A DNA stretch of 64,000 bases. Source: Couchioplanes caeruleus (lineage in GTDB: Bacteria; Actinomycetota; Actinomycetes; Mycobacteriales; Micromonosporaceae). Below, piece by piece: positions 1,014-19,710 of this stretch; position 1 is the first letter of the stretch; each line of letters starts with the position of its first letter. Position numbers and translations under genes: made by a program. Location of the stretch: assembly GCF_023499255.1 (NCBI RefSeq), contig NZ_CP092183.1, positions 2,177,501 through 2,241,500 on the forward strand, written 5' to 3'. Under the pieces are notes generated by a model. It saw nothing but the letters and a program-made list of their open reading frames with translations. It was not told the origin of the DNA and ran no database searches.

Positions 1014-2696
1014 ATGGATGTGAGTGATTCCGTCGCCGCGAGCCGGCAGCGGGTCGTCGGCTTTGCGGACGTGGTACGGATTCCGCTGCGCCGCTGGCGC
1101 ATCGTGGCCACCGTCGCCGGCATCGTCACGCTGGCGGCGCTCGCGTACCTGCTCTTCTTCCCGGCCACCTACCGGGCCACCACCGTGGTGGTGCTGCGGC
1201 CCGTGGTCACCGACCCGTTCACGCTGCCGTCCAGCGGCGCGGACCGGGCCATCAACATGACGGCCGAGAACGGCATCGCGCTCGGCAACGACGTCATCGA
1301 CTCGACGGCGCGGATCCTCAACCGGGATCCCGAGGACGTGCGCGAGGCGCTCAGCACCGAGGTGCCGACCGGTGGCCAGGTGCTGCGGTTCCAGTACACC
1401 AGCGACTCCGAGCGCAGCGCGATCACCGGCGCGAACACGGCCGCCGAGACGTACCTGCGGGTCCGCGAGGACATCTACAAGCAGCAGCGGGCGGCGCTGA
1501 TCCTGTCGTACGACAACACGATCAAGTCGGTCACGTCCCAGCGGCTGAGCGCGCAGAAGGAACTGCCCTCCAACCGGGCGAGCTCCGACACCACCTCGCC
1601 GCGTACGCAGGCCATGCTCGATCAGGTCAGCGCGCTCAACGACCAGATCGCGCAGCTCGCGAACGCCCGCGCGAAGGTGATCTCCGCCGACCTGAGCCCG
1701 GGCTCCGTCACGGCCGCGGCCCGCGCGCCGGTGCCGTCGAGCCATGACGCGGCGGTGCTCTACCTGACCGCCGCCGTCCTCGGCGGCCTGCTGCTCGGTG
1801 CCATCGCCGCGCACGCGCGGGAGGCGCTGGACCGCCGGGTGCGCTCGATCGACCAGGCCGCCGACATCGTCGGTGTGCCCGCCCTCGGCGTGGTCCGCGC
1901 GGCGGGCCGGCACGGCGAGTCCGCGGCCGCCGCCGACGCCCGGTACGTCTCGCTCGCCGTGCTCAAGTGGATCGACCGGCACCCGGACCGCGCCCTGGTC
2001 GTGCTCTCCGGCCGCGACGACGAGGGGCGCACGACGGTGAGCGGCAACCTCGCGGTCGCGCTCGCCGAGGCCGGGCAGGACGTCACGCTGAGCGCCACGC
2101 CCGAGACGCACGAGGAGCTCAAGCGCATCCTGTTCGCGGCCCAGAAGCGCACGCCCCCGCGGCCGCGCACGCTCTCGCCCTCGGGCGGGGGCCTCAACGG
2201 GTCCTCGCCCGCCGGCGGCCTGGGCCGTGGCGGCGTCGGCGCCCCGGCGCCCGGGGTCACCCGGCTGCAGGGCTCGCCGATGCGGGTCGCCGACCCCCTG
2301 CCGGAGGTCAAGGCGACCTCCAACGACCCCGAAGCCACGCTCATCATGGAGACGTCCGCCGGCCGGTCCGCCTCCTCCGCCCCGATCGTCGCCCCCGCAC
2401 CCGCGCGGCCGGCCGCGGACCTCGACGGTCGCGCGCCGCTCGTGGTGCTCCTCGGCGGCGGCGTCGTCCGGCTCTGCACGCTCGGCGAGGAGCCGGAGAT
2501 CGGTGTGGTGGTCGTGGACGCGCCGCCCTCGGACATCGACGAGCGCGGGGTCCGCGCCGCCCAGGCCGGCGTCGCCGTGCTCGTGGTGGCCCGGGACCGC
2601 ACCCGCAACACCGAGCTGAGCCGGCTGGTGGACCGGCTGCGCTCGGCCGGCGCCCAGACCGTCGGGTTCGTCCTCACCGGAGGCCGGGGTGCCTGA
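1014..2696 (+). CDS. Wzz-type polysaccharide co-polymerase with degenerate BY-kinase-like C-terminal domain
   Basis: 560 aa. The ATG at 1014 is chosen because GGGGAGAG lies 8-15 nt upstream; an in-frame start 15 codons earlier has no such site. A membrane segment near residues 32-52 follows a short cytosolic N-terminus, then a mostly helical extracytoplasmic region with Wzz features, then a second membrane segment near 245-265. The C-terminal half aligns by eye with bacterial tyrosine kinases, but the P-loop reads GRDDEGRTT with Arg339 in place of the essential Lys. The A' motif is lost, a VVVVDAPP Walker B-like strand survives near 497-504, and there is no Tyr cluster at the C-terminus. It probably sets chain length without kinase activity. 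It overlaps the next gene by 8 nt and heads the EPS operon. Confidence 0.85.
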   Translation: MDVSDSVAASRQRVVGFADVVRIPLRRWRIVATVAGIVTLAALAYLLFFPATYRATTVVVLRPVVTDPFTLPSSGADRAINMTAENGIALGNDVIDSTARILNRDPEDVREALSTEVPTGGQVLRFQYTSDSERSAITGANTAAETYLRVREDIYKQQRAALILSYDNTIKSVTSQRLSAQKELPSNRASSDTTSPRTQAMLDQVSALNDQIAQLANARAKVISADLSPGSVTAAARAPVPSSHDAAVLYLTAAVLGGLLLGAIAAHAREALDRRVRSIDQAADIVGVPALGVVRAAGRHGESAAAADARYVSLAVLKWIDRHPDRALVVLSGRDDEGRTTVSGNLAVALAEAGQDVTLSATPETHEELKRILFAAQKRTPPRPRTLSPSGGGLNGSSPAGGLGRGGVGAPAPGVTRLQGSPMRVADPLPEVKATSNDPEATLIMETSAGRSASSAPIVAPAPARPAADLDGRAPLVVLLGGGVVRLCTLGEEPEIGVVVVDAPPSDIDERGVRAAQAGVAVLVVARDRTRNTELSRLVDRLRSAGAQTVGFVLTGGRGA

Positions 2697-3603
2697 CAGC
2701 CTGCCGGACGTCACCGTCGTCGTCGCCACCCGGGACCGGCCCGGCCTGCTGGAACGCGCCGTCACCAGCATCCTCGGCCAGGACTATCCCGGCCACGTCG
2801 AGTGCATCGTCGTGTACGACCACGTCGACGTCCGGGAGCTCGACGTGGCCGTGGGCCCCGGCCGGTCGCTCAAGCTCATCAACAACACCCACCGCCAGGG
2901 GCTGCCGGGCGGCCGCAACAGCGGCGCCGACGCGGCCACCGGCGACCTGCTGGCGTTCTGCGACGACGACGACATCTGGCTCGCCGCGAAGCTCAGCCGC
3001 CAGGTGGAGCTGCTCGCCGACCCGGCGATCGGCGCGGTCAGCTGCGGGCTGCGCCTGCGCGGCCCCGGCATCGACAAGGAGCGGGTGCTCGACAAGGACC
3101 TGGTCACGCACGACGACTTCCTCGCCGACCGGGTCATGGAGGTGCACTCCAGCACGATGCTGATCCGGCGGTCCACCTGGGCCGCGGCCGGCGAGGTCGA
3201 CGAGCAGATCCCCGGCGGGTACAGCGAGGACTACGAGTGGCTGTTGCGGGTCTCCGCGCAGACCCCGGTGGCCGTCGTCCGCCAGGCGTTGGTCATCGTC
3301 GACTGGCACGGCGGCTCGTTCTACTTCGGCCGCTGGGCGACCATCGTCGAGGCTCAGCGCTATCTCATCGCCAAGCACCCCGACCTGGCCCGCAGCCGCG
3401 CCGGCCTGGCCCGGCTCCGGGGACAGATCGCGTTCGCGCTCGCCTCGGGCAACCGGCGCACCGAGGCGCTCAAGGAGCTCGCGGCGGTCGTCCGGCTCAA
3501 TCCCCGGGAGAAGCGCGTGCTGGTCACCGTACCCGTCGTGCTGCGCCTGGTGACCGGTGAGCGGGTCCTGCGGATGGCGCAGAAGCGCGGCAGGGGGATC
3601 TGA
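2689..3603 (+). CDS. family 2 glycosyltransferase
   Basis: 304 aa, GTG start overlapping the end of the wzz-like gene by 8 nt, so probably translationally coupled. The N-terminus VTVVVATRDRPGLLERAV is the GT-A nucleotide-sugar fold entry. The metal/UDP-binding acidic cluster CDDDDIW is near residues 89-95, and a later SEDYEW segment could supply the catalytic base. There is no membrane segment, so it is likely a cytosolic or membrane-associated inverting enzyme that adds one sugar to the lipid-linked repeat unit. Donor and acceptor cannot be read from the sequence. Confidence 0.88.
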   Translation: MPDSLPDVTVVVATRDRPGLLERAVTSILGQDYPGHVECIVVYDHVDVRELDVAVGPGRSLKLINNTHRQGLPGGRNSGADAATGDLLAFCDDDDIWLAAKLSRQVELLADPAIGAVSCGLRLRGPGIDKERVLDKDLVTHDDFLADRVMEVHSSTMLIRRSTWAAAGEVDEQIPGGYSEDYEWLLRVSAQTPVAVVRQALVIVDWHGGSFYFGRWATIVEAQRYLIAKHPDLARSRAGLARLRGQIAFALASGNRRTEALKELAAVVRLNPREKRVLVTVPVVLRLVTGERVLRMAQKRGRGI

Positions 3604-3605
3604 GG

Positions 3606-4970
3606 TTGGCCAGGACGACCCTGCGGCCCAAGCGCGTCGCGCGCGCGGCCGTGCCGGCCAGGGCGCGGGCGATCGCCGCGGTCGAGCCGGGCGTCCTGGA
3701 CCCGGCGGCCTGGCGGGTCCGCACCGCCAAGCTGCCGCTGTGGCCGCTGTTCATGATGTTCGCGCTGATGCCGCTGTGGTGGGTGCTCGGCGTCTGGTAC
3801 GTCGTCTGGCCGTTCTTCGGGGTCGTGCTGTTCGCCCTGCTCGCCACGCGCGGTGACGTCCGGTTGCCGGCCGGCACCTGGCTCTGGCTGATCTTTCTGG
3901 GCATCGTCGCGATCAGCAGCACCCGGCTGGAACGGGCCACCTCGATCGTGGTGTTCGGCCTGCGGCTGGGCCACCTCTGCACCGCGCTGCTCGTCGGCAT
4001 CTACGTCTACAACCTGGGCCGGGACCGGATCCCGTGGGCGCGGATCGCCTCCCCGCTCGCGCTGTTCTGGCTGGCCATGGTGGCGCTCGGCTGGTTCGGC
4101 GTGCTGGCGCCCCGGTTCAGCATGCCGAGCCCGTTCGAGCTGGTGCTGCCGGCGGGCGTACGGGGCGAGCGGTACATCCTGGACGTGGCGCACCTGGACG
4201 CGACCGAGTTCAACCCGTTGAGCCGCAACCCGATCTACCGGCCGGCGGCGCCGTTCCCGTACACCAACAACTGGGGTACGGCGTACAGCTTCCTCGTGCC
4301 GTTCGTGCTCGCGTATCTCATGTCGGTCCGGCGCGGTGCGCTGCGCGCCGTACTCATGGTGTCGTTGCCGTTGTCGCTGGTCCCGGCGTTCCTGACGCTC
4401 AACCGGGGCATGTTCATCGGGCTCGGCGCCGGCGTGCTCTACCTGCTGGTCCGGGAGATGGCCAGGGGCCGGGTACGGCTGCTGCTGCCGATCACCCTGA
4501 TCGTCTTCGCCGGCTGGGTGGTGACCCTGTTCATCCCCGTGGTCGACCTCATCACGCACCGGACGTCGACGACGGACACCAACACCGACCGGTTCGACCT
4601 GTACGTGCAGACGTGGGCCGCGGTGCTGCGCTCGCCGCTGCTGGGCTTCGGCCAGCCGACCCAGGTCGACACCACGCACGCCGCGGAACCCCTCGGCACG
4701 CAGGGCATGATCTGGCAGCTGCTGTACAGCCACGGCATCCCGGCCACGATCTGCTTCTACCTGATCCTGCTGGTCCTGGCCCGCCGGCTGTCCGGCGCGG
4801 TGAGCCCCGCCGGGCTGTGGCTGAGCGCCCTGCCGGTGATCGCCGCGGTCGTCACCCCGTTCTACTCCTACATCGACCCGAACATGTCGGTGCTGCTCTT
4901 CGCCGTCGGCCTCGGCCTGGCGGCGGTGGACGGGCCGGTCAACCGCGAACCGAGGACCAGGGCGTCGTGA
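3606..4970 (+). CDS. O-antigen ligase/polymerase-like integral membrane protein (Wzy-like)
   Basis: 454 aa starting at a TTG only 2 nt after the GT2 stop; no better ATG/GTG lies nearby. After a basic ~40-residue N-terminus come about ten hydrophobic segments with a large extracytoplasmic loop (around residues 170-220), the layout of Wzy/WaaL proteins. The GFGQPTQVDTTHAAEP stretch with a His late in the protein resembles the second periplasmic loop of O-antigen ligases. Together with Wzz and Wzx neighbours it should polymerise the EPS repeat unit outside the membrane. Its GTGA end is also the start of a bridging micro-ORF. Confidence 0.8.
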   Translation: MARTTLRPKRVARAAVPARARAIAAVEPGVLDPAAWRVRTAKLPLWPLFMMFALMPLWWVLGVWYVVWPFFGVVLFALLATRGDVRLPAGTWLWLIFLGIVAISSTRLERATSIVVFGLRLGHLCTALLVGIYVYNLGRDRIPWARIASPLALFWLAMVALGWFGVLAPRFSMPSPFELVLPAGVRGERYILDVAHLDATEFNPLSRNPIYRPAAPFPYTNNWGTAYSFLVPFVLAYLMSVRRGALRAVLMVSLPLSLVPAFLTLNRGMFIGLGAGVLYLLVREMARGRVRLLLPITLIVFAGWVVTLFIPVVDLITHRTSTTDTNTDRFDLYVQTWAAVLRSPLLGFGQPTQVDTTHAAEPLGTQGMIWQLLYSHGIPATICFYLILLVLARRLSGAVSPAGLWLSALPVIAAVVTPFYSYIDPNMSVLLFAVGLGLAAVDGPVNREPRTRAS

Positions 4971-5029
4971 CGGACTGCACCGCAGCGAAGCAAGGGCCAG
5001 GACGGCACGACCGTGAGGCTCAGTCATGA
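4967..5029 (+). CDS. 20-aa bridging micro-ORF with MTDCT N-terminus
   Basis: The gap between the polymerase and flippase genes is filled exactly by one 21-codon frame. It starts at GTG 4967 (inside GTGA, overlapping the upstream stop) and ends at TGA 5027-5029 (inside ATGA, overlapping the flippase start). The peptide begins VTDCT and carries GPGR and RE. A 30-aa ORF in the same position between two ABC genes (17885-17977, other strand) also begins MTDCT and contains GPGR followed by RE. No strong Shine-Dalgarno is seen, so translation would rely on coupling. It could be a real small protein or a reinitiation relay whose product is irrelevant. Confidence 0.45.
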   Translation: MTDCTAAKQGPGRHDREAQS

Positions 5030-6543
5030 CGGCCGTCGCGGACAGGGACGAGGTCCGCCGCAGCACCCGCAGCGGCCTGATCGGGCTGCTCGGCGCCGCG
5101 GTCAACGGCGCCTGCGGGTTCGTGCTCACCGCCGTGATCGTGCGGGTCTTCGGCGCGGCCGACTCGGGCGCGCTGTTCACCGCCATCGGCCTCGTCAGCA
5201 TCATCGGACCGCTGTGCTGCCTCGGCGCCGACACGGGCCTGATGTGGGCGCTGCCGCGCCGCGAGCGCCTCTCCCGGGACGGGGCGCGCCTGCTGGTCCT
5301 GGCGCTGGTGCCCACCGTCGCGCTGGCCGCGGCCGTGGCCGTCGTGGGCTGGCCGGCGGCGCCCCGCCTGGGTGCGGCGCTGCTCACCGGCGGCCCGGAC
5401 GACGCCGCCCTGATCCGGCTCGCCCTCGTCGGCGTACCGGTGTTCGTGGCCGCCACGGTCCTGCTGGCCGCGGTCCGGGCGACCCGGCCGGTCAGCGCGT
5501 ACGTCGGGCTGCAGCTCGTCGCGGTGCCGATCGCCCGGCCGGTGCTGGTCGGCATGGCCGTCGTCGCCGGCGGTTCGGTGGTGCAGGGCTTCGCCGGCTG
5601 GGTCCTGCCGCTGGCCCTCGCCGGGGTGGCCGCGGCGGTGCTGAGCCTCCGCCCGCTCGGGATCGGGCGCGGTGCGGTGCTCAGGCCCACCCCGCAGGAC
5701 CGCCGCGAGTTCGCCGGCTTCGCGCTGCCCCGGGCGCTGTCCACGGCCATCGACGCCAGCAGCATGTGGGTCGGGGTGCTGCTCACCTCCGCCCTGGCCG
5801 GCCCGGCCGCCGCCGGCGTCTTCGGCGCGGTCGGCCGGTACGTGCTGGCGGGTCTGCTGGTCATGCAGGGCCTGCGGGTCGCGATCGCGCCGCAGCTGTC
5901 CGGGCTGCTCGGCGCGGGCCGCCGGTCGGCCGCCGCGCAGATCTACCGGCGGACGACGGTGTGGATCGTGCTGCTCTCCTGGCCCGCGTACCTGCTGCTG
6001 GCGGTCTTCGCGCCGGCCTTCCTGGCGCTGTTCGGCGGCGACTTCTCCGGCGGCGCCGCGCCGCTGGCGGTCCTCGCGGTGGCCATGATGGTGAACGTCG
6101 GCGTCGGCCTCGTGCAGACGGTGCTGCTGATGAGCGGCAACAGCCGCGGTCACCTGCTGGGCACCGTGGCGGGCCTCGCGGTCAACGTCGCCGGGTGCGT
6201 GCTGCTCATCCCGCGGCACGGCGCCCTGGGTGCGGCCGTCGCCTGGTCGCTGGGCATCGTCTGCGAGAACGTCGTCGCCGCGGTGCTGGCCCGCCGGGTG
6301 CTCGGCGAGGCCCTGTTCGGGACCGGGCTCGTGGCGGCCGCGGCCGCGGCGACCGCCGGTACCGGCGTCGCGGCGGCGGCCGGTGCCGGGCTGGCGGGCC
6401 GCGGCGTACCGGGCCTCGCCGTCGCCCTGGCCGTGCTGCTGGCCCTCTGCGCCGCTTCCCTCGCAAGCCCCCGGGTCCGGCGCGCCGTCGCGGCCGCGCG
6501 GACCCAGCTCCGACCACCCGCGAAACAGGAGGCTCTGTCGTGA
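5026..6543 (+). CDS. Wzx-like flippase / polysaccharide biosynthesis membrane protein (MOP superfamily)
   Basis: 505 aa, ATG overlapping the micro-ORF stop by ATGA. There are about 12-14 hydrophobic segments throughout. The N-terminal pattern SGLIGLLGAAVNGACGFVLT followed by ARVFG-like and DSGALF residues is typical of Wzx/MurJ-type lipid-linked oligosaccharide flippases. It should move the undecaprenyl-linked repeat unit across the membrane for the adjacent Wzy/Wzz pair. The stop shares GTGA with the sulfotransferase start. The exact family inside the MOP superfamily is not resolved by eye. Confidence 0.85.
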   Translation: MTAVADRDEVRRSTRSGLIGLLGAAVNGACGFVLTAVIVRVFGAADSGALFTAIGLVSIIGPLCCLGADTGLMWALPRRERLSRDGARLLVLALVPTVALAAAVAVVGWPAAPRLGAALLTGGPDDAALIRLALVGVPVFVAATVLLAAVRATRPVSAYVGLQLVAVPIARPVLVGMAVVAGGSVVQGFAGWVLPLALAGVAAAVLSLRPLGIGRGAVLRPTPQDRREFAGFALPRALSTAIDASSMWVGVLLTSALAGPAAAGVFGAVGRYVLAGLLVMQGLRVAIAPQLSGLLGAGRRSAAAQIYRRTTVWIVLLSWPAYLLLAVFAPAFLALFGGDFSGGAAPLAVLAVAMMVNVGVGLVQTVLLMSGNSRGHLLGTVAGLAVNVAGCVLLIPRHGALGAAVAWSLGIVCENVVAAVLARRVLGEALFGTGLVAAAAAATAGTGVAAAAGAGLAGRGVPGLAVALAVLLALCAASLASPRVRRAVAAARTQLRPPAKQEALS

Positions 6544-7430
6544 CGGTGCTCGACCGGTTGAAGAACGCGGCGCCGCAGGGCGCCCGGGAAGGGCTGCGCA
6601 GCGCCCTGGTCCGGTACGGCGAGCACACCAGCGCCCGTCGCCCGCTGCCCGACTTCCTCATCGTCGGCACCAAACGCGGCGGCACCACCTCGCTGTGGCG
6701 GTACCTCGTCCAGCACCCGCTCGTGCCCCGCCTCTTCCCGGCGTGGAACACCAAGACCTCGCACTACTTCGAGGAGAACTGGTCGCGCGGACAGGCGTGG
6801 TATCGCTCGCACTTCCCGACCGAGCGGCAGCGGGCCGCCCTCGAACGCCGGTACGGCGCACCGCCCAAAGTGGGTGAAGCCGCACCGCTGTACATGTTCC
6901 ATCCCCTCGTGGCGGACCGGGTCGCCGACCTGATGCCGCAGGTGCGCATCATCGTGCTGCTGCGCGATCCGGTGGAGCGGGCGTACTCGCACTGGAAGGA
7001 GCGCCGGGGCGAGGGTGTGGAGCCGCTCGGGTTCGCCGAGGCCCTCGCCGCCGAGCAGGAGCGGACGGCGGGGGAGCGGGAACGCCTCATCGCGGAGCCC
7101 GGCTCCGTCAGCGAGGCGTTCGACTGGTACTCGTACCGGGCGCGCGGCCGCTACCTCGAGCACCTGGAGCCGTGGCTGGCCCGGTTCCCGCGCGAGCAGA
7201 TGCTGTTCCTGCCCAGCGAGACCCTGTACCGCGATCCCGCCGGCACGTACGCCCGTACCCTCGACTTCATCGGCCTGCCGCCGCACGAGCTGGAGTCCTA
7301 CGACGTCTTCAACGACCGGCCGAGCAAGGGCATGGACCCCGCGGTACGTGCCGAGCTGACCGCCTACTACCGGCCGTTCAACGCCGCGCTGGCGGAGCGT
7401 CTGGGGCTGTCGCTCGCCTGGGCCGGCTAG
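6540..7430 (+). CDS. PAPS-dependent carbohydrate sulfotransferase
   Basis: 296 aa, GTG start overlapping the flippase stop by GTGA, with AGGAGG about 6 nt upstream. The 5'-phosphosulfate loop IVGTKRGGTTSL lies at residues 41-52 and the 3'-phosphate motif RDPVERAYSHW near 142-152, both diagnostic of the Sulfotransfer_1 / heparan-sulfate-type fold. Expected activity is transfer of sulfate from PAPS to a sugar hydroxyl. Its coupling to Wzz/Wzy/Wzx genes implies a sulfated exopolysaccharide or glycolipid. Its stop shares a CTAG tetranucleotide with the convergent gene on the other strand. Confidence 0.9.
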   Translation: MTVLDRLKNAAPQGAREGLRSALVRYGEHTSARRPLPDFLIVGTKRGGTTSLWRYLVQHPLVPRLFPAWNTKTSHYFEENWSRGQAWYRSHFPTERQRAALERRYGAPPKVGEAAPLYMFHPLVADRVADLMPQVRIIVLLRDPVERAYSHWKERRGEGVEPLGFAEALAAEQERTAGERERLIAEPGSVSEAFDWYSYRARGRYLEHLEPWLARFPREQMLFLPSETLYRDPAGTYARTLDFIGLPPHELESYDVFNDRPSKGMDPAVRAELTAYYRPFNAALAERLGLSLAWAG

Positions 7431-11420: not shown

Positions 11421-11639
11421 TCGCGTATGCCCTGACCAGCGCAACCTCCACCGTTCGGCCGGGGAAGAAGTCGGCGCAAAGTCCCGCGGAAGGGGCTATC
11501 CGACCGAAAAGTCCATTTCCCCCACACCTCCGCAAATCCCTGGTTACAGTACGGTCGGCGCAGTTCCCAAGTGCGAGCTTTGTCCCCGCGCTTCACGGGC
11601 CGCGCCGAACCGGCCTGCGCCGGCGTTCCACAAGCCGTC

Positions 11640-11724
11640 GCGTGCGGCACCGAGAAAGGCAAACCCGTCGAGAGGCGGGGACGCAAAGCCAGGGACCTCC
11701 CGAGCGGGAGGCGGCCCAGCCGCC
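11640..11724 (+). promoter_or_regulatory. c-di-GMP-I (GEMM-I) riboswitch in the leader of the Calx-beta gene
   Basis: The leader contains the GEMM-I hallmarks in order and spacing. CGAGAAAGGCAAACC ends at 11665. A 6-bp hairpin CCCGTC-GAGA-GGCGGG with a GNRA tetraloop follows, then GGGACGCAAAGCC ends at 11690. A second helix (CCTCCC-GAGC-GGGAGG) and CAGCCGCC close the element. The outer helix P1 can form between GCGGC (11644-11648) and GCCGC (11719-11723), one base before the gene's GAAGGAGA ribosome site, so ligand binding could gate translation. The rest of the 365-nt gap (11377-11741) holds the upstream terminator and probably the promoter, for which I see no clear -35. Confidence 0.85.
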
Positions 11725-11741
11725 GAAGGAGACAGAAGTAC

Positions 11742-14615
11742 ATGCGCTATCAACCAGCCCATGCGGCCAAGAGCGGCTCGGTACCGTTCATGCTGCGTGG
11801 ACCCAAGTCGGTCCGGACGGTCCTGTCGGCCGCCGTCGCCGGTGCGATCGCCTTCGCCCCGGCCGTCCTCATCAGCGCGCCCGCCCAGGCCGCACCGCTC
11901 GCCGGCTTCACCTTTGCCGACAACTCGATCAGCACGACCGAGGGCGGCGACCTGGTCTTCGAGCTCGTCCGTACCGCGGACGCCAGCCCGCTGAGCTCCA
12001 CGAACCTGACCTGGACGGTCAGCACGGGCACCGGTCCGACGGACGCGACGGTCGACGAGGACTACACGGACGTCGGGACGGGCACCGTCACGTTCCCCGC
12101 CGACAACTCGGCCCCGTACGGCGGCGACAGCCAGTTCCTCACCGTGCAGACGCTGCAGGACACCCTCGACGAGAACGTCGAGACCTTCACGGTCACGGTG
12201 ACGGACGGCAACGGCAACACGCTCGAGGCCGAGGGCCGGATCTCCGACGACGACGCCGCCCCGCACTACGCGCTCTTCGTCGACGACCCGTCGCCCTCCG
12301 AGGACATCAACGGCGGCGTGGTCAACATCACGGCGGAGCTGGACGCCATCTCCGGCAAGGACGTCACGATCCCCGTGACCGTCACGCCGGGTACGGCGAA
12401 GCTCGGCGCCACCCAGGACTACACGTTCACCCCCGGCTCGATCACCATCCCGGCCGGCACGAACACCAGCACGTCGCTGTCGATCAGCATCGTGGACGAC
12501 TCGCTGTACGAGGAGTCGGGCCAGACCCTCACCGTCCAGGGCGGCACCAACGCCTCCGTGACCGGCACCGACTCGGCGCTCGTGACGATCATGGACGACG
12601 AGGACCAGCCCGAGATCGACGTCGCCGCCACGACCGTCACTGAGGGCGGCACGCTGGCGTTCGGCGCGACCCTGAGCGGCCCGTCGGAGCGTCCGGTCAC
12701 GGCCACCTGGACGGCGGCCGACGGCCCCGGAACGGACGCGCCCAACTCGACGCACGGCATCGCCAAGGCGGGCTCGGACTACACCGCGGCGACCGGCACC
12801 GTCACCTTCCCGGCGGCCACGTCGAACACCACGGTGCCCGGCAACACCGCGCAGACGATCAACGTCAAGACGGTCTCGGACCAGATCAACGAGGCCACCG
12901 AGGACATGCACGTCACCCTCACCAACCCGACGATCGCCACCATCGGCGACGCTCAGGCGACGGGTGCGATCATCGACAACGACCCGATCCCGACGGCGAC
13001 CCTGTCGCCCACCACGGACATCACCGAGGGCAACAGCGGGCGTACGGCCAAGACGTACACGGTCAAGCTGAACCGTGAGTCGGGCCAGACGGTCACCGTG
13101 AACTACGACGTCCGCACGGGCGCCGGGTCGGCCACGGAGGTCGAGGACTTCTTCGCCACCTCCGGCAAGCTGACGTTCAAGCCGGGTGAGACGAGCAAGA
13201 CCTTCACCGTGGACATCGTCGGCGACAACGTCGACGAGCCGGGCAACTCGAACCGCGAGGACTTCGAGATCGCGCTGTCGAGCTCGACGGCCGACACGAC
13301 CAACAACGGCAACGCCGGCGTGGTCTCCGTCAACATCGTCGACGACGACGCGACGCCCACCTTCTCGGTGGCTCCGATCACCATGCAGGAGGGCGACACC
13401 AGCTCCGTCGTGGTGTTCCCGGTCAAGCTGTCCAACCCCAGCGACACGGCCACCACGTTCACGCTGACCGACGTCCCGGGCAGCGCGACCAACTCGGGCA
13501 ACGACCCGGGCGACGTCGACTACGACCTGGTGCAGAGCACCGTCACCATCCCGGCGCGCCAGACCACGGGGTACCTGTACTTCCTGGTCACCGGCGATGA
13601 CGTGTACGAGACCAACGAGCAGATGAAGGTCACGCTCGCGCCGTCGGCCAACATCACGGCGGGCAACAAGGACGCGAACCTCACGATCCTCAACGACGAC
13701 GACGCGCCGTCGCTCGAGGTCGTGTCCGCGGTCGGTGAAGAGGGCGACACCGTGAACGTCATGGGTGTCGTCACCGGCACCGCGCAGGACGACACGGTCT
13801 TCAACATCAACTTCGCCGGCTCGTCGGTCAACGGCAGCACCGCTGCCTCGGTGAACGACTTCACCAACCCGGGCACGGTCTCGAAGACCGTCCAGGGGGG
13901 CACGCTCTCCGGCAGCCCGGTGATGATCACGACGCTCGACCTGACCGACGACACCACGCCCGAGGGCCCGGAGACGATCCTCGCCTCCGGCAACGCGGTC
14001 AACGGCACGGTCGTCAACGGCGTCATCACCATCGCGGCCAGCGACGGCGGCGCGCCGGCTCCGGCGCCGACCCTGGCGTCGTCGGCGAGCTTCCGCCTCG
14101 GCGTCGGCTCGCTGCGGCTGAGCGGTACGGCCGCCGCCGGCCAGACCGTGACGCTGTGGGGTACGCCGATCGGCGCGCCCGCGAACAAGCCGTGGCAGAG
14201 CCTGGGCACCACCACGGCCAACTCGGCGGGGAACTACAGCTTCTTCCCGCAGTTCACGACGACCGGCTGGTGGTTCCGGACGGCCGTGGGCGACCAGCAG
14301 TCCAACGCGGTCAAGGTGTACCTGAAGGAGGACCCGGACTTCTACGTCCGCTCCTACAGCAAGGGCACCGTCACGCTGATCGCCTACGGTGACCCGCGCG
14401 TCGCCGGCCTGTCGGTCCGCTTCCTGCGGGCCAACAGCAACGGTACGTGGAGCACGGTCGGCACCGGCGTCCTGGACGCCAACGGCCGCTTCTCGAAGAA
14501 GCTGACCGGCCTGAAGTCCGGCGCCTCGTACCTCTACAAGGCGACGATCTACGGCGACGGTGACGTCGGCCTGATGACGAACACGTCGACCAGCGCCCGG
14601 ATCCGGGTGCGCTGA
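11742..14615 (+). CDS. secreted multi-Calx-beta repeat protein, probable adhesin/matrix protein
   Basis: 957 aa. ATG at 11742 with GAAGGAGA 10 nt upstream. A long basic N-terminus leads to a signal segment ending near APAQAAP (~48). Five to six tandem Calx-beta-like modules of ~110-125 residues follow, most ending in D-D-D or D-N-D boundary acids that bind Ca2+ in this family; the sixth is degenerate. The last ~190 residues form two Ig/bacterial-jellyroll-like modules. There is no LPXTG, no membrane anchor and no enzyme motif, so it is probably released or matrix-bound. The c-di-GMP riboswitch ahead of it fits an adhesion or biofilm role. A bidirectional terminator follows. Confidence 0.88.
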   Translation: MRYQPAHAAKSGSVPFMLRGPKSVRTVLSAAVAGAIAFAPAVLISAPAQAAPLAGFTFADNSISTTEGGDLVFELVRTADASPLSSTNLTWTVSTGTGPTDATVDEDYTDVGTGTVTFPADNSAPYGGDSQFLTVQTLQDTLDENVETFTVTVTDGNGNTLEAEGRISDDDAAPHYALFVDDPSPSEDINGGVVNITAELDAISGKDVTIPVTVTPGTAKLGATQDYTFTPGSITIPAGTNTSTSLSISIVDDSLYEESGQTLTVQGGTNASVTGTDSALVTIMDDEDQPEIDVAATTVTEGGTLAFGATLSGPSERPVTATWTAADGPGTDAPNSTHGIAKAGSDYTAATGTVTFPAATSNTTVPGNTAQTINVKTVSDQINEATEDMHVTLTNPTIATIGDAQATGAIIDNDPIPTATLSPTTDITEGNSGRTAKTYTVKLNRESGQTVTVNYDVRTGAGSATEVEDFFATSGKLTFKPGETSKTFTVDIVGDNVDEPGNSNREDFEIALSSSTADTTNNGNAGVVSVNIVDDDATPTFSVAPITMQEGDTSSVVVFPVKLSNPSDTATTFTLTDVPGSATNSGNDPGDVDYDLVQSTVTIPARQTTGYLYFLVTGDDVYETNEQMKVTLAPSANITAGNKDANLTILNDDDAPSLEVVSAVGEEGDTVNVMGVVTGTAQDDTVFNINFAGSSVNGSTAASVNDFTNPGTVSKTVQGGTLSGSPVMITTLDLTDDTTPEGPETILASGNAVNGTVVNGVITIAASDGGAPAPAPTLASSASFRLGVGSLRLSGTAAAGQTVTLWGTPIGAPANKPWQSLGTTTANSAGNYSFFPQFTTTGWWFRTAVGDQQSNAVKVYLKEDPDFYVRSYSKGTVTLIAYGDPRVAGLSVRFLRANSNGTWSTVGTGVLDANGRFSKKLTGLKSGASYLYKATIYGDGDVGLMTNTSTSARIRVR

Positions 14616-15935: not shown

Positions 15936-17888
15936 TCAGTCGACCTCGACCGCAGCCTCGGCGAACTGCGCCGAGTACAGCCGGGCGTACGCCCCGCCCG
16001 CGGCGATGAGCTCGTCGTGGGTGCCCTGCTCGACGATCGCGCCGGACTCCATCACCAGGATCACGTCGGCGTCGCGGATGGTGGAGAGCCGGTGCGCGAT
16101 GACGAAAGACGTACGGCCCGCCCGCAGCGTGGTCATCGCCCGCTGGATCAGCACCTCGGTACGGGTGTCGACCGAGCTGGTGGCCTCGTCGAGGATCAGG
16201 ATGCTCGGCTCGGCGAGGAACGCCCGGGCGATGGTGATCAGCTGCTTCTCGCCCGCCGAGACGTTGCCACCCTCCTCGTCGATCACGGTGTCCATGCCGT
16301 CGGGCAGGGACCGGACGAAGCGGTCGACGTGGGCGGCCTCCGCGGCGTCCGCCACATCGGACGGTGTGGGAGCGTCGGCGCCGTACGCGATGTTCTCCGC
16401 GATCGTGCCGCCGAACAGCCAGGTGTCCTGCAGCACCATCCCCATGTGCTCGCGCAGCTCCGGCCGGGGCATGGTGGCGATGTCCACGCCGTCGAGCGTG
16501 ATCCGCCCGGACGTCACGTCGTAGAAGCGCATCAGCAGGTTGACGAGCGTGGTCTTGCCGGCGCCCGTCGGCCCGACGATCGCGACCGTCTGGCCGGGCT
16601 CCACGCCGAACGACAGGTTCTCGATCAGCGGCGTGTCGGGCACGTAGCGGAACGACACGTTCTCGAAGGCGACCCGTCCCTCGAACCGGCGGTGGCCGGT
16701 GGAGGCCGGGTCCGGCTCCTGCTCCTTCGCGTCGAGCAGGGCGAACACGCGCTCCGCCGACGCCACGCCGGACTGCACCAGGTTGGCCATGCTCGCCACC
16801 TGGGTCAGCGGCTGGCTGAACTGGCGCGAGTACTGGATGAAGGCCTGCACGTCGCCCAGCGACAGCGAGCCCGAGGCCACCCGCAGGCCGCCCACCACGG
16901 CGACGAGCACGTAGTTGATGTTGCTGATGAACATCATGGCCGGCTGGATCAGGCCCGAGATGAACTGGGCGCGGAAGCTGGACGCGTACAGCTTGGTGTT
17001 GTGCTCCTCGAAGGTCTCGGCCGCCTCCTTGCCGCGACCGAAGACCTTGACCAGCGCGTGGCCGGTGAACATCTCCTCGATGTGGCCGTTGAGCTTGCCC
17101 GTCGTCGCCCACTGGGCGACGAACTGCGGCTGCGAGCGCTTGCCGATGCGGGTGGTCACCCACACCGAGACGGGTACGGTGACCAGCGCGATCAGCGCCA
17201 GCAGCGGCGAGATCCAGAACATCACCCCGAGCACGCCGATGATCATGAGAAGCGACGTGACGAGCTGCGCGAAGGTCTGCTGCAGGGTCTGCGCGATGTT
17301 GTCGGTGTCGTTGGTGGCCCGGCTCAGCACCTCACCGCGGGGCTGTTTGTCGAAGTAGGACAGCGGCAGGCGGGACAGCTTCGCCTCGACGTCCTCGCGC
17401 AACCGGAAGACCGTGGCCTGCACGACGCGGGCGGTGAGCCGGCCCTGCATCACGCCGAACAGCCACGCGGCCAGGTAGACGGCGAGCACCCACAGCAGGA
17501 TGTGGCCGAGCCGGTCGAAGTCGACGCCCCGCCCGGGTACGACGTGCATGGCGGCGAGCATGTCGGCGCGGTTCGTCTCGCCCCGGGCGCGCAACTGCTC
17601 GACGATCTGCTCCTTCGGCACCCCGGCGGGCAGGCTCTTGCCGACGATGCCGTCGAAGATCACGTCGGTGGCGTGGCCGAGGATGCGCGGACCCGCGACG
17701 GACAGGGCCACGCTGGCGGTCCCCAGCAGCATCACGAGCGCCACGAGGGCGCGTTGCGGGCGCAGCATGCCGAGCAGCCGCTTGCTGGAACCCTTGAAGT
17801 CCTGGAGTTTCTCGGCCGGCATGCCGCCGGCCATCATCCGGCCCGGACCGCCCATCGGCGGCCCCGGCCTTCTCGCGGGCGCCGTCAT
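15936..17888 (-). CDS. ABC exporter half-transporter (canonical catalytic site)
   Basis: 650 aa, ATG with GGGAGG 8 nt upstream. A Pro/Gly/Met-rich N-terminal tail precedes six transmembrane helices (~60-340) and an ATPase domain with Walker A GPTGAGKTT, signature VSAGEKQ and Walker B ILILDEATSSVD with intact catalytic Glu. Paired with the upstream ABC gene it should form a heterodimeric type IV exporter for drugs or lipids, similar to the BmrCD/TmrAB group. It is the last gene of the tetR-ABC-micro-ORF-ABC operon. Confidence 0.9.
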   Translation of the reverse strand: MTAPARRPGPPMGGPGRMMAGGMPAEKLQDFKGSSKRLLGMLRPQRALVALVMLLGTASVALSVAGPRILGHATDVIFDGIVGKSLPAGVPKEQIVEQLRARGETNRADMLAAMHVVPGRGVDFDRLGHILLWVLAVYLAAWLFGVMQGRLTARVVQATVFRLREDVEAKLSRLPLSYFDKQPRGEVLSRATNDTDNIAQTLQQTFAQLVTSLLMIIGVLGVMFWISPLLALIALVTVPVSVWVTTRIGKRSQPQFVAQWATTGKLNGHIEEMFTGHALVKVFGRGKEAAETFEEHNTKLYASSFRAQFISGLIQPAMMFISNINYVLVAVVGGLRVASGSLSLGDVQAFIQYSRQFSQPLTQVASMANLVQSGVASAERVFALLDAKEQEPDPASTGHRRFEGRVAFENVSFRYVPDTPLIENLSFGVEPGQTVAIVGPTGAGKTTLVNLLMRFYDVTSGRITLDGVDIATMPRPELREHMGMVLQDTWLFGGTIAENIAYGADAPTPSDVADAAEAAHVDRFVRSLPDGMDTVIDEEGGNVSAGEKQLITIARAFLAEPSILILDEATSSVDTRTEVLIQRAMTTLRAGRTSFVIAHRLSTIRDADVILVMESGAIVEQGTHDELIAAGGAYARLYSAQFAEAAVEVD

Positions 17889-17977
17889 GCTGTGCCTCCC
17901 GTGGGCATGCCGTCGCGGCCCTCGCGCTTGCGGCCGGGGCCGGCCGCCGGTGGGCGCGGCTCGGTGCAGTCGGTCAT
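17885..17977 (-). CDS. 30-aa bridging micro-ORF with MTDCT N-terminus
   Basis: This 31-codon frame exactly spans the gap between two ABC genes. Its ATG (17977) overlaps the upstream stop by ATGA and its TGA (17887-17885) overlaps the downstream ATG by ATGA. AGGAGG lies about 7 nt before the start, better than many full genes here. The peptide starts MTDCT and has GPGRKREGR; the micro-ORF at 4967-5029 also starts with TDCT and has GPGR followed by RE. All four GPGR codons differ between the two (GGG CCA GGA CGG versus GGC CCC GGC CGC), which hints at selection on the peptide. Function unknown. Confidence 0.55.
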   Translation of the reverse strand: MTDCTEPRPPAAGPGRKREGRDGMPTGGTA

Positions 17978-19710
17978 GCCGCAGCCTCCTGCTCGGTGAG
18001 CTGGGAAAGGACGATCTCGCGGTACGTCTCGTTGGTGTCCATGAGCTCCGTGTGGGTGCCGGTGCCGACGACCAGGCCGTTGTCCAGCACGACGATGCGG
18101 TCGGCGTCGCGGATCGTGCTGACCCGCTGCGCCACGATCACCACCGTCGCGTCCGCGGTCTGCCGGGCCAGCGCCGCCCGCAGTGCCGCGTCGGTGGCGT
18201 AGTCGAGCGCGGAGAACGAGTCGTCGAAGAGGTAGATCTCCGGCCGGTGGACGAGCACCCGCGCGATGGCCAGGCGCTGGCGCTGACCGCCGGAGACGTT
18301 GGTGCCGCCCTGTGCGATCGCCGCGTCGAGGCCGCCCTCCATCCGCTCGACGAAGTCGCGGGCCTGCGCCACCTCGAGCGCCGCCCACAGCTGGTCGTCG
18401 GTCGCGTCCGGGTTGCCGTACCGCAGGTTCGACCCGACCGTGCCGCTGAACAGGTACGGCTTCTGCGGCACCAGCCCGACGGTCCGCGACAGCAGCCCGG
18501 GGTCCAGGTCGCGCACGTTCACGCCGTCGACGAGCACCTCGCCGCCGGTCGCGTCGAACAGCCGGGGCACCAGGTTGAGCAGCGTGGTCTTGCCGGAGCC
18601 GGTGCTGCCGATGACCGCGGTGACCTCGCCGGGCCGTGCCGAGAGGCTGACGCCGCAGAGCACCGGCGCCTCGGCGCCGGGGTAGTGGAAGTCGACCCCG
18701 CGCAGCTCCAGGTAGCCGTGCCGGGCGAGCTCGGTGACCGGCTCGGCCGGTACGCGGACCGAGGTGTGGGTGCCCAGCACCTCCTCGATGCGCTCGGCGC
18801 AGACCTCGGCGCGCGGGATCATGACGAACATGAACGTCGCCATCATGATCGCCATGAGGATCTGCATGAGGTAGCTCAGGAACGCGGTGAGCGCGCCGAC
18901 CTGCATGGCCCCGCTGTCGATGCGGTGGCCGCCGAACCAGAGCACCGCGACGCTGGACAGGTTCACGATCAGCATCACGGTCGGGAACATCATCGCCATG
19001 AGCCGGCCGACGAGCAGCGAGACGTCGGTGAGCTCCTCGTTGGCCACCCCGTACCGGGCGTGCTCGCGCTCGTCGCGGACGAACGCGCGGATCACCCGGA
19101 TGCCGGTGATCTGCTCGCGCATGACCCGGTTGACCTTGTCGATGCGGACCTGCATGGTCCGGAAGAGCGGCCGCATCCGGGCGATGATCAGCGAGACCAC
19201 GATCAGCAGCACCGGGACGATCACCAGCAGCAGCGACGACAGCGGCACGTCCTGGCGCAGCGCCAGCAGGATGCCGCCGACACACATGATCGGCGCGGAG
19301 ACCATCAGCAGGAAGGTCATCAGCACCAGCATCTGGACCTGCTGGACGTCGTTCGTGGTCCGCGTGATCAGCGACGGCGCGCCGAACTGGCCGACCTCGC
19401 GGGCCGAGAAGTCCATGACCTGGCCGAAGATGGCGGCGCGGATGTCGCGGCCCACCCCCATGGCGGTCTGCGCCCCGAAGTACACGGCGGCGACCTGGGC
19501 GACGATCTGGACGAGCGAGACGCCCAGCATCCCCGCGCCCACGCGCAGCACGTAGTCGGTGTCGCCGGGCACCACGCCGTTGTCGATGATGTCGGCGTTC
19601 AGGGTGGGCAGGTAGAGCGTGGCCAGCGTGGCGACGAACTGGAAGAGCACGACCAGAGCGATCGGTCTTCCGTACGGCCTCAGCCGGTCCCGCAGGAGTC
19701 GGATCAGCAC
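17974..19710 (-). CDS. ABC exporter half-transporter (degenerate catalytic site)
   Basis: 578 aa, GTG start overlapping the tetR stop by 7 nt. Six transmembrane helices (~15-300) are followed by an ATPase domain with Walker A GSTGSGKTT and signature VSGGQRQ. Its Walker B is YLFDDSFSALD, where Asp replaces the catalytic Glu. This Asp-for-Glu change marks one subunit of heterodimeric exporters with one degenerate ATP site; the partner downstream keeps the Glu. Substrate unknown; the TetR repressor suggests induction by the exported compound. Confidence 0.9.
   Translation of the reverse strand: MLIRLLRDRLRPYGRPIALVVLFQFVATLATLYLPTLNADIIDNGVVPGDTDYVLRVGAGMLGVSLVQIVAQVAAVYFGAQTAMGVGRDIRAAIFGQVMDFSAREVGQFGAPSLITRTTNDVQQVQMLVLMTFLLMVSAPIMCVGGILLALRQDVPLSSLLLVIVPVLLIVVSLIIARMRPLFRTMQVRIDKVNRVMREQITGIRVIRAFVRDEREHARYGVANEELTDVSLLVGRLMAMMFPTVMLIVNLSSVAVLWFGGHRIDSGAMQVGALTAFLSYLMQILMAIMMATFMFVMIPRAEVCAERIEEVLGTHTSVRVPAEPVTELARHGYLELRGVDFHYPGAEAPVLCGVSLSARPGEVTAVIGSTGSGKTTLLNLVPRLFDATGGEVLVDGVNVRDLDPGLLSRTVGLVPQKPYLFSGTVGSNLRYGNPDATDDQLWAALEVAQARDFVERMEGGLDAAIAQGGTNVSGGQRQRLAIARVLVHRPEIYLFDDSFSALDYATDAALRAALARQTADATVVIVAQRVSTIRDADRIVVLDNGLVVGTGTHTELMDTNETYREIVLSQLTEQEAAA

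Follow-up and report, generated by a model that had tools for sequence, protein, structure and literature searches.

The gene for a 957-aa secreted protein in Couchioplanes caeruleus is preceded by a leader that resembles a riboswitch, which raises the question of whether c-di-GMP acts on an extracellular protein directly through RNA. BldD is a c-di-GMP protein receptor in filamentous actinomycetes. The RsiG-WhiG route, as described in the excerpts available, also relies on a protein receptor in actinomycetes, and it is mainly through protein receptors that we know c-di-GMP signalling in the filamentous members of the group. A functional, genus-wide switch at this locus would let c-di-GMP reach an extracellular protein directly through RNA in organisms that build sporangia and motile spores, and the combination of one aptamer and one target gene provides a ready test pair.

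The stretch of DNA analyzed here (64,000 nucleotides, referred to as the window) was searched in full with cmscan against Rfam 15. The first-pass annotation had placed a GEMM-I element in the leader, and the search agrees: the c-di-GMP-I (GEMM-I) model RF01051, with a gathering cut-off of 35 bits, is matched over its full length (model positions 1-87) at 11648-11727 on the plus strand, with 57.5 bits and an E-value of 1.3e-8. This is the only match above gathering score in the 64-kb window, and the only RF01051 match in the whole 8.42-Mb genome. The leader contains GGCAAACC, a GAGA loop of the GNRA type and GACGCAAAGCC, in the GEMM-I order that had been described. Positions G20, C92, and A47 are named below in what we take to be Vc2 numbering. 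The G20 equivalent, which is the ligand-selectivity base, is a G at 11658, and the ligand-contact C equivalent to C92 by alignment is at 11723; both bases are those of a c-di-GMP-I aptamer. Helix P2 (11659..11684) carries the GAGA loop at 11670-11673. Helix P3 (11687..11721) has an apical stem formed by 11696-11701 and 11706-11711, with two A-C mismatches near its base. The aptamer shares with the family the whole model, the contact bases, the GNRA loop on P2, and the P1-P2-P3 junction. It differs in having a Shine-Dalgarno sequence within P1, and in lacking the tetraloop-receptor positions of the Rfam model, which are gaps in the window alignment even though the GNRA loop is present. The free energy of the leader is ordinary (z -0.85).

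The closing helix is of particular relevance for control. In the related cGAMP riboswitch, the 3′ strand of P1 starts immediately after the ligand-contact C, according to the parts of PMC6274999 available, and mapping from the fold in the same source places the 5′ strand of P1 (CCG) at 11650..11652. The corresponding 3′ strand, CG-AA-G(G), would lie at 11724..11731 and overlap the Shine-Dalgarno sequence AAGGAG (11726-11731). The closing helix had been thought to end one base before the ribosome site; it is better read as P1, with its 3′ strand running into that site. Only 14 nt separate the end of the aptamer from the ATG of the Calx-beta gene.

The pairing of aptamer and gene extends across the genus, more strongly than had been anticipated for Actinoplanes-like genomes. 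RF01051 is matched in 60 of 67 genus genomes, 59 of them above the cut-off. The downstream gene was examined for 82 matches (81 outside the genome of origin, plus that of the window), and these fall into two classes. Class A comprises 59 leaders in 59 of the 67 genomes, each in front of a large secreted relative of the window protein (P0001), and includes one leader under the cut-off (32.5 bits, genome G063). The products are 704-1312 aa long, the longest being open at the locus end, and begin with MRYxxAHAAxSGSVPFxLRG or a relative of this motif. A P0001 family profile recognizes all 59 (E <= 1e-5), the weakest with an E-value of 1.7e-158. Furthermore, all class A leaders have AAGGAG directly 3′ of the aptamer, and the ATG follows 13-16 nt past the model end. 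An alignment of the 59 class A leaders reveals a conserved block, GGTTAnAnTACGG, ∼100 nt 5′ of the aptamer; its window counterpart, GGTTACAGTACGG (11542..11554, plus strand), is a putative promoter-like element. Class B comprises 23 leaders in 23 genomes, upstream of a gene for a small (130-150 aa) secreted protein, and 22 of these genomes also carry class A.

P0001 has at least one match in 66 of the 67 genomes; a convincing ortholog was not found in G010, G018, and G024, three of the seven genus members that lack an RF01051 match (best E-values 1.3e-11, none, and 3.4e-6, respectively). Two genomes outside the 60 with a match, G064 and G019, have kept the aptamer with an enlarged, longer P2, and two others, G046 and G056, have kept the gene with a decayed aptamer; in all four, the 3′ part GCCC(C)AGCCGCC(G/T)AAGGAG is found before the gene. 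In G057, which has class B only, the Calx-beta gene follows an unrelated leader. The decayed aptamers and this unrelated leader indicate that some species can do without the switch. Across the family, RF01051 was found in 60 of 354 genomes, all belonging to this one genus of the 44, using stricter filters with which weak matches are lost.

Alignment of 72 distinct aptamers (50 class A and 22 class B) points to a conserved RNA structure. In P2 and P3, 91.2% of cells are paired, and the covariation score for the two helices is 0.300, compared with 0.117 in shuffled alignments (reached in 0 of 500) and at most 0.085 with the partner slid; much of this signal separates class A from class B. Counts of pairs changed on both sides (9 versus 7.2 shuffled, 29/500) and of further pair types (18 versus 18.7, 439/500) are less striking than the covariation score. 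The selectivity base, which precedes the GC closing P2, is G in 59/59 class A leaders, and the ligand-contact C is C in 72/72 distinct aptamers, including all 50 distinct class A rows. The A47 equivalent is A in 48/50 class A and 21/22 class B rows, and otherwise G. A further departure from the RF01051 family is the P3 closing pair of class A, which is A-C in 50/50 distinct sequences; another P3 pair is C-A in 46 of the 50 and U-A in 4. With the script anchoring used, 53 of the 59 class A leaders can form the CG/CG pairs of P1, the six misses being one mis-anchored row, four with a J1/2 length that was not tried, and one real mismatch (G050). The three-helix junction is one in which P2 and P3 covary and P1 does not; covariation support for P1 is lacking in class A because its 3′ strand hardly varies.

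The product of the window gene (11742..14615, plus strand) had been described as a 957-aa secreted repeat protein without an anchor, and this description holds. Its reading frame opens at the ATG at 11742; across 59 genomes the N-terminus is conserved and the spacing stays at 13-16 nt, which supports this start. A long signal-peptide region (11742..11891), with the genus-conserved motif MRYxxAHAAKSGSVPFxLRG and the top hydropathy from residue 26, is followed, on our reading of the structural model, by six Calx-beta-like beta-sandwich units (11892..14036). Pfam scores three stretches as Calx-beta (PF03160, 116.2 bits against a curated cut-off of 27), and the modelled structure shows the Calx-beta fold. 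A C-terminal pair of Ig-like domains occupies residues 772-957 (14055..14612). Neither an LPXTG-like motif nor, past the signal peptide, a strongly hydrophobic segment was found in the protein. Invariant acidic positions in the family, among them D380, E384, and E387, are suggestive, though only suggestive, of Ca2+ binding. The protein is a secreted, apparently unanchored, probably calcium-binding matrix or adhesion protein, and, as a secreted bacterial repeat protein, it differs from CBD1 of NCX1 and CALX. A relative with 95% identity occurs in Nucisporomicrobium flavum, and most named full-length homologs come from Actinoplanes and the genera split from it, which points to an Actinoplanes-like genome (family Micromonosporaceae) for the window. 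In several species (loci L148, L149, L150, and L151), giant Calx-beta frames of up to 3610 aa form a tandem with the class A gene, on its upstream side; two natural starts of such neighbors were examined and both are without an aptamer. The idea that the N-terminal motif reflects a constraint on the RNA was considered and rejected, since these two aptamer-less neighbors share a related motif.

The surroundings of the gene had suggested a matrix module controlled by c-di-GMP. A convergent ABC transporter gene (15936..17888, minus strand; PF00664, PF00005) serves as a marker of the orthologous locus. The locus is orthologous: of 17 loci (L032, L163-L178), 16 have this gene next to the Calx gene (E <= 1e-10); in the seventeenth, L174, only a 23-residue piece is present at the locus edge. 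A second ABC transporter gene (17974..19332, minus strand; PF00664, PF00005) is cut off by the locus end in several loci. On the other side, window positions 1014-7430 hold a Wzx/Wzy-type EPS cluster, with Pfam matches to GT2, Wzy_C, and sulfotransferase families and a MatE match below its cut-off, and a GH16+CBM96 gene is also present. The proximity of EPS and GH16 genes was thus described correctly for the window. As a general rule, the linkage was rejected: in a survey covering ∼14-16 kb upstream per locus (6 kb for L032), EPS genes and GH16-CBM96 accompany the Calx gene in only 3 of 17 loci (L032, L169, and L174). A lectin-like gene had also been reported nearby; no lectin family was detected among the neighbors scanned with Pfam, a subset of the open reading frames. 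In its make-up, the window cluster resembles wps-1 of Actinoplanes missouriensis, both having genes for GT2, Wzy, and Wzx-like proteins, a sulfotransferase, and a methyltransferase, most genes of wps-1 being needed for normal sporangia, as far as the available sections of PMC13390465 describe. Calx, c-di-GMP, and riboswitches are absent from the main text of that paper.

Taken from sequence, the Calx-beta leader is very probably a genuine c-di-GMP-I riboswitch, with P1 extending into the Shine-Dalgarno sequence and the most likely action at the start of translation. We infer binding of c-di-GMP by the leader, control at the level of translation, and, from geometry, the sign of the response. 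Enzyme domains for c-di-GMP are abundant in the genome (62 GGDEF and 38 EAL matches). Ligand supplied by its many GGDEF proteins would bind the three-way junction and stabilize P1, whose 3′ strand, CG-AA-GG, runs into the Shine-Dalgarno sequence. No sequence intervenes between the aptamer and the Shine-Dalgarno sequence, and we see no separate expression platform, making translation start the most likely point of control. The amount of extracellular Calx-beta protein made would then most likely be set by c-di-GMP. The geometry leans towards c-di-GMP lowering translation (OFF), which we somewhat favor; that it raises translation (ON) has a lesser, though still considerable, probability. c-di-GMP falls at sporulation in actinomycetes, and in the OFF case this is when the protein would be made.

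An ON switch, in which the unliganded leader masks the Shine-Dalgarno sequence or start codon and c-di-GMP frees it so that the protein rises, is a tentative alternative. The Shine-Dalgarno sequence or the AUG could, for instance, be paired with CCUCC of P3 or with the 5′ flank, and the unforced fold of the window does pair GCGUG (11640-11644) with the CAUGC that spans the start codon. There are also precedents in the partial sources available, where high c-di-GMP promotes Vc1-gbpA and Bc2 is termed an ON riboswitch. Against this, no partner of the Shine-Dalgarno sequence recurs over the 59 class A leaders: the commonest lie in the coding region with a mean probability of ∼0.18, and those in P3 reach only ∼0.06-0.08. 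Energy folding was rejected as an arbiter between ON and OFF, as it gave no consistent difference in access to the site. Mean unpaired probability of the Shine-Dalgarno sequence in the 59 class A leaders was 0.59 in free folds and 0.56 with P2 and P3 forced, values that leave out P1 and ligand energy; forcing changed access by 0.2 in few leaders (lower in 6/59, higher in 2/59), and in class B it moved from 0.37 to 0.32. Two hairpins were also put aside. One immediately 5′ of the aptamer looked conserved by eye, but its stem length (5.25) is on a par with simple shuffles (4.97); the perfect hairpin of the window, GGCGGC-CCA-GCCGCC, was dropped as an expression platform because no more than 15 of the 59 class A leaders retain it intact.

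Bound c-di-GMP might instead affect transcription (Rho-dependent or by attenuation) or mRNA stability. Dual control of transcription and translation is described for Bc1 in the excerpts available, yet the Shine-Dalgarno sequence directly after the aptamer in 59 class A leaders leaves no room for a terminator hairpin, and we regard this account as improbable. It is more improbable still that the leader is a relic, having lost switching and been kept as a stabilizer of the 5′-UTR: decayed versions do occur in G046 and G056, whereas contact bases and stems have been kept, with covariation, in 59 genomes. The preferred reading is thus a c-di-GMP-I riboswitch acting on translation of the Calx-beta gene.

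Class B leaders carry a second c-di-GMP-I RNA with a less uniform selectivity base: G in 12 of 23, A in 6 (L033, L053, L054, L072, L090, and L092), and C in 5 (L060, L063, L067, L068, and L069). In the available parts of PMC6274999 and PMC11352751, an A at this place goes with 3′,3′-cGAMP, and G20A alters GEMM-I. The A and C bases make a change of ligand directly testable inside one genus. The small class B protein is predicted to consist of beta strands (model pLDDT 69), and no Foldseek match was found for it at E <= 0.001. Among class B genes, 13 of 36 (L189-L201) are without an RF01051 match; some of their leaders resemble decayed aptamers, and others share a common conserved leader beginning gattcatcaggtgtc. 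An Rfam search of 6 of these 13 loci returned only tRNA and one sub-threshold, chance-like match. A broader reading, which we consider unlikely, is that of a two-branch cyclic-dinucleotide RNA regulon for the Actinoplanes coat. In one branch, an OFF switch, strictly of the c-di-GMP type and with the Shine-Dalgarno sequence in P1, would provide the Calx-beta protein as c-di-GMP drops at sporangium development; in the other, class B, having drifted from G20, would act on a beta-sandwich, perhaps fiber-like, protein, with A20 and C20 reflecting another or a relaxed ligand. The Ig-like pair that ends the Calx protein was also looked for at 17 class B loci and occurs again close to the class B gene in 5 of them (L189, L190, L192, L195, and L197); at L189:3129-4232(-), it lies within a 367-aa protein with a lamin-tail domain. 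Directly after the class B gene in two genomes (L204:4416-6512(-) in G048 and L088:3578-5653(+) in G057) is a single open reading frame combining a signal-peptidase-like domain, DUF5305, and a GGDEF domain. The L204 frame scores above the cut-off for archaeal-type signal peptidase I, and its GGDEF domain is probably inactive, as the motif reads EADNF.

Comparison with known systems helps to define what is new. The gbpA gene encodes an adhesin, Bc2 is the collagen-adhesion switch, and both the Vc1-gbpA and Bacillus thuringiensis switches act on other proteins, in other phyla, than the Calx-beta pair. In the partial sources available, Vc1-gbpA of V. cholerae and the B. thuringiensis riboswitch of a collagen adhesion protein likewise place a c-di-GMP riboswitch before an adhesion protein; the sign of the response is known there, whereas for the window switch it is only estimated. 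The same kind of source describes Vc2-tfoY as promoted at low c-di-GMP, and the large repeat adhesins FrhA (with Calx-beta repeats) and CraA of V. cholerae as controlled by c-di-GMP with LapG/LapD; their release depends on a protease, and riboswitch Vc2 touches frhA only via TfoY. The first-pass annotation contrasted direct riboswitch control here with other means of control in proteobacteria. A switch does precede the Calx-beta gene, but riboswitch control of an adhesion protein is not new in kind, given Vc1-gbpA and the Bacillus example. Searches of open-licence full texts found no c-di-GMP-I riboswitch in Actinoplanes, none combined with type IV pili and actinobacteria, no combination of Actinoplanes missouriensis with Calx-beta, and, in the portions of text available, no Calx-beta target under a riboswitch. 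Likewise, among the open-licence matches listed, a c-di-GMP riboswitch in Actinobacteria or Micromonosporaceae was absent, and the aptamer-Calx pair was absent from those for riboswitches in Actinoplanes or sporangia and from those, seen as excerpts, for c-di-GMP or GEMM riboswitches in Streptomyces and for c-di-GMP riboswitch, adhesin, and Shine-Dalgarno combined. The novel part, which we did not find described in the literature searched, is the genus-wide use of a known riboswitch class on a Calx-beta target, together with a possible ligand drift in the class B sister.

A class-level sample places these findings in a wider actinobacterial context. RF01051 was found in 43 of 394 genomes, including the genome of origin. 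Of 58 matches other than that of the window, 53 were examined; four run off the contig and 49 have a downstream gene called. None of these 49 genes matches the Calx profile, and the Calx-beta target appears to be confined to this genus within the sample. In 52 of the 53 matches, G occupies the selectivity position. By their GFTLIELL pattern, 25 of the 49 genes encode type IV pilins (one checked, PF07963), and 10 are CAP-like by pattern (one checked, PF00188), with 3 more recognized by eye; the remainder are 3 class-B-like genes, 2 response regulators, and 6 others. Within the actinobacterial sample, extracellular appendage and surface proteins are the common targets of c-di-GMP-I riboswitches. 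L208, L209, and L211, among others, are examples from other actinobacterial families in which the riboswitch precedes genes for type IV pilins or CAP-like secreted proteins.
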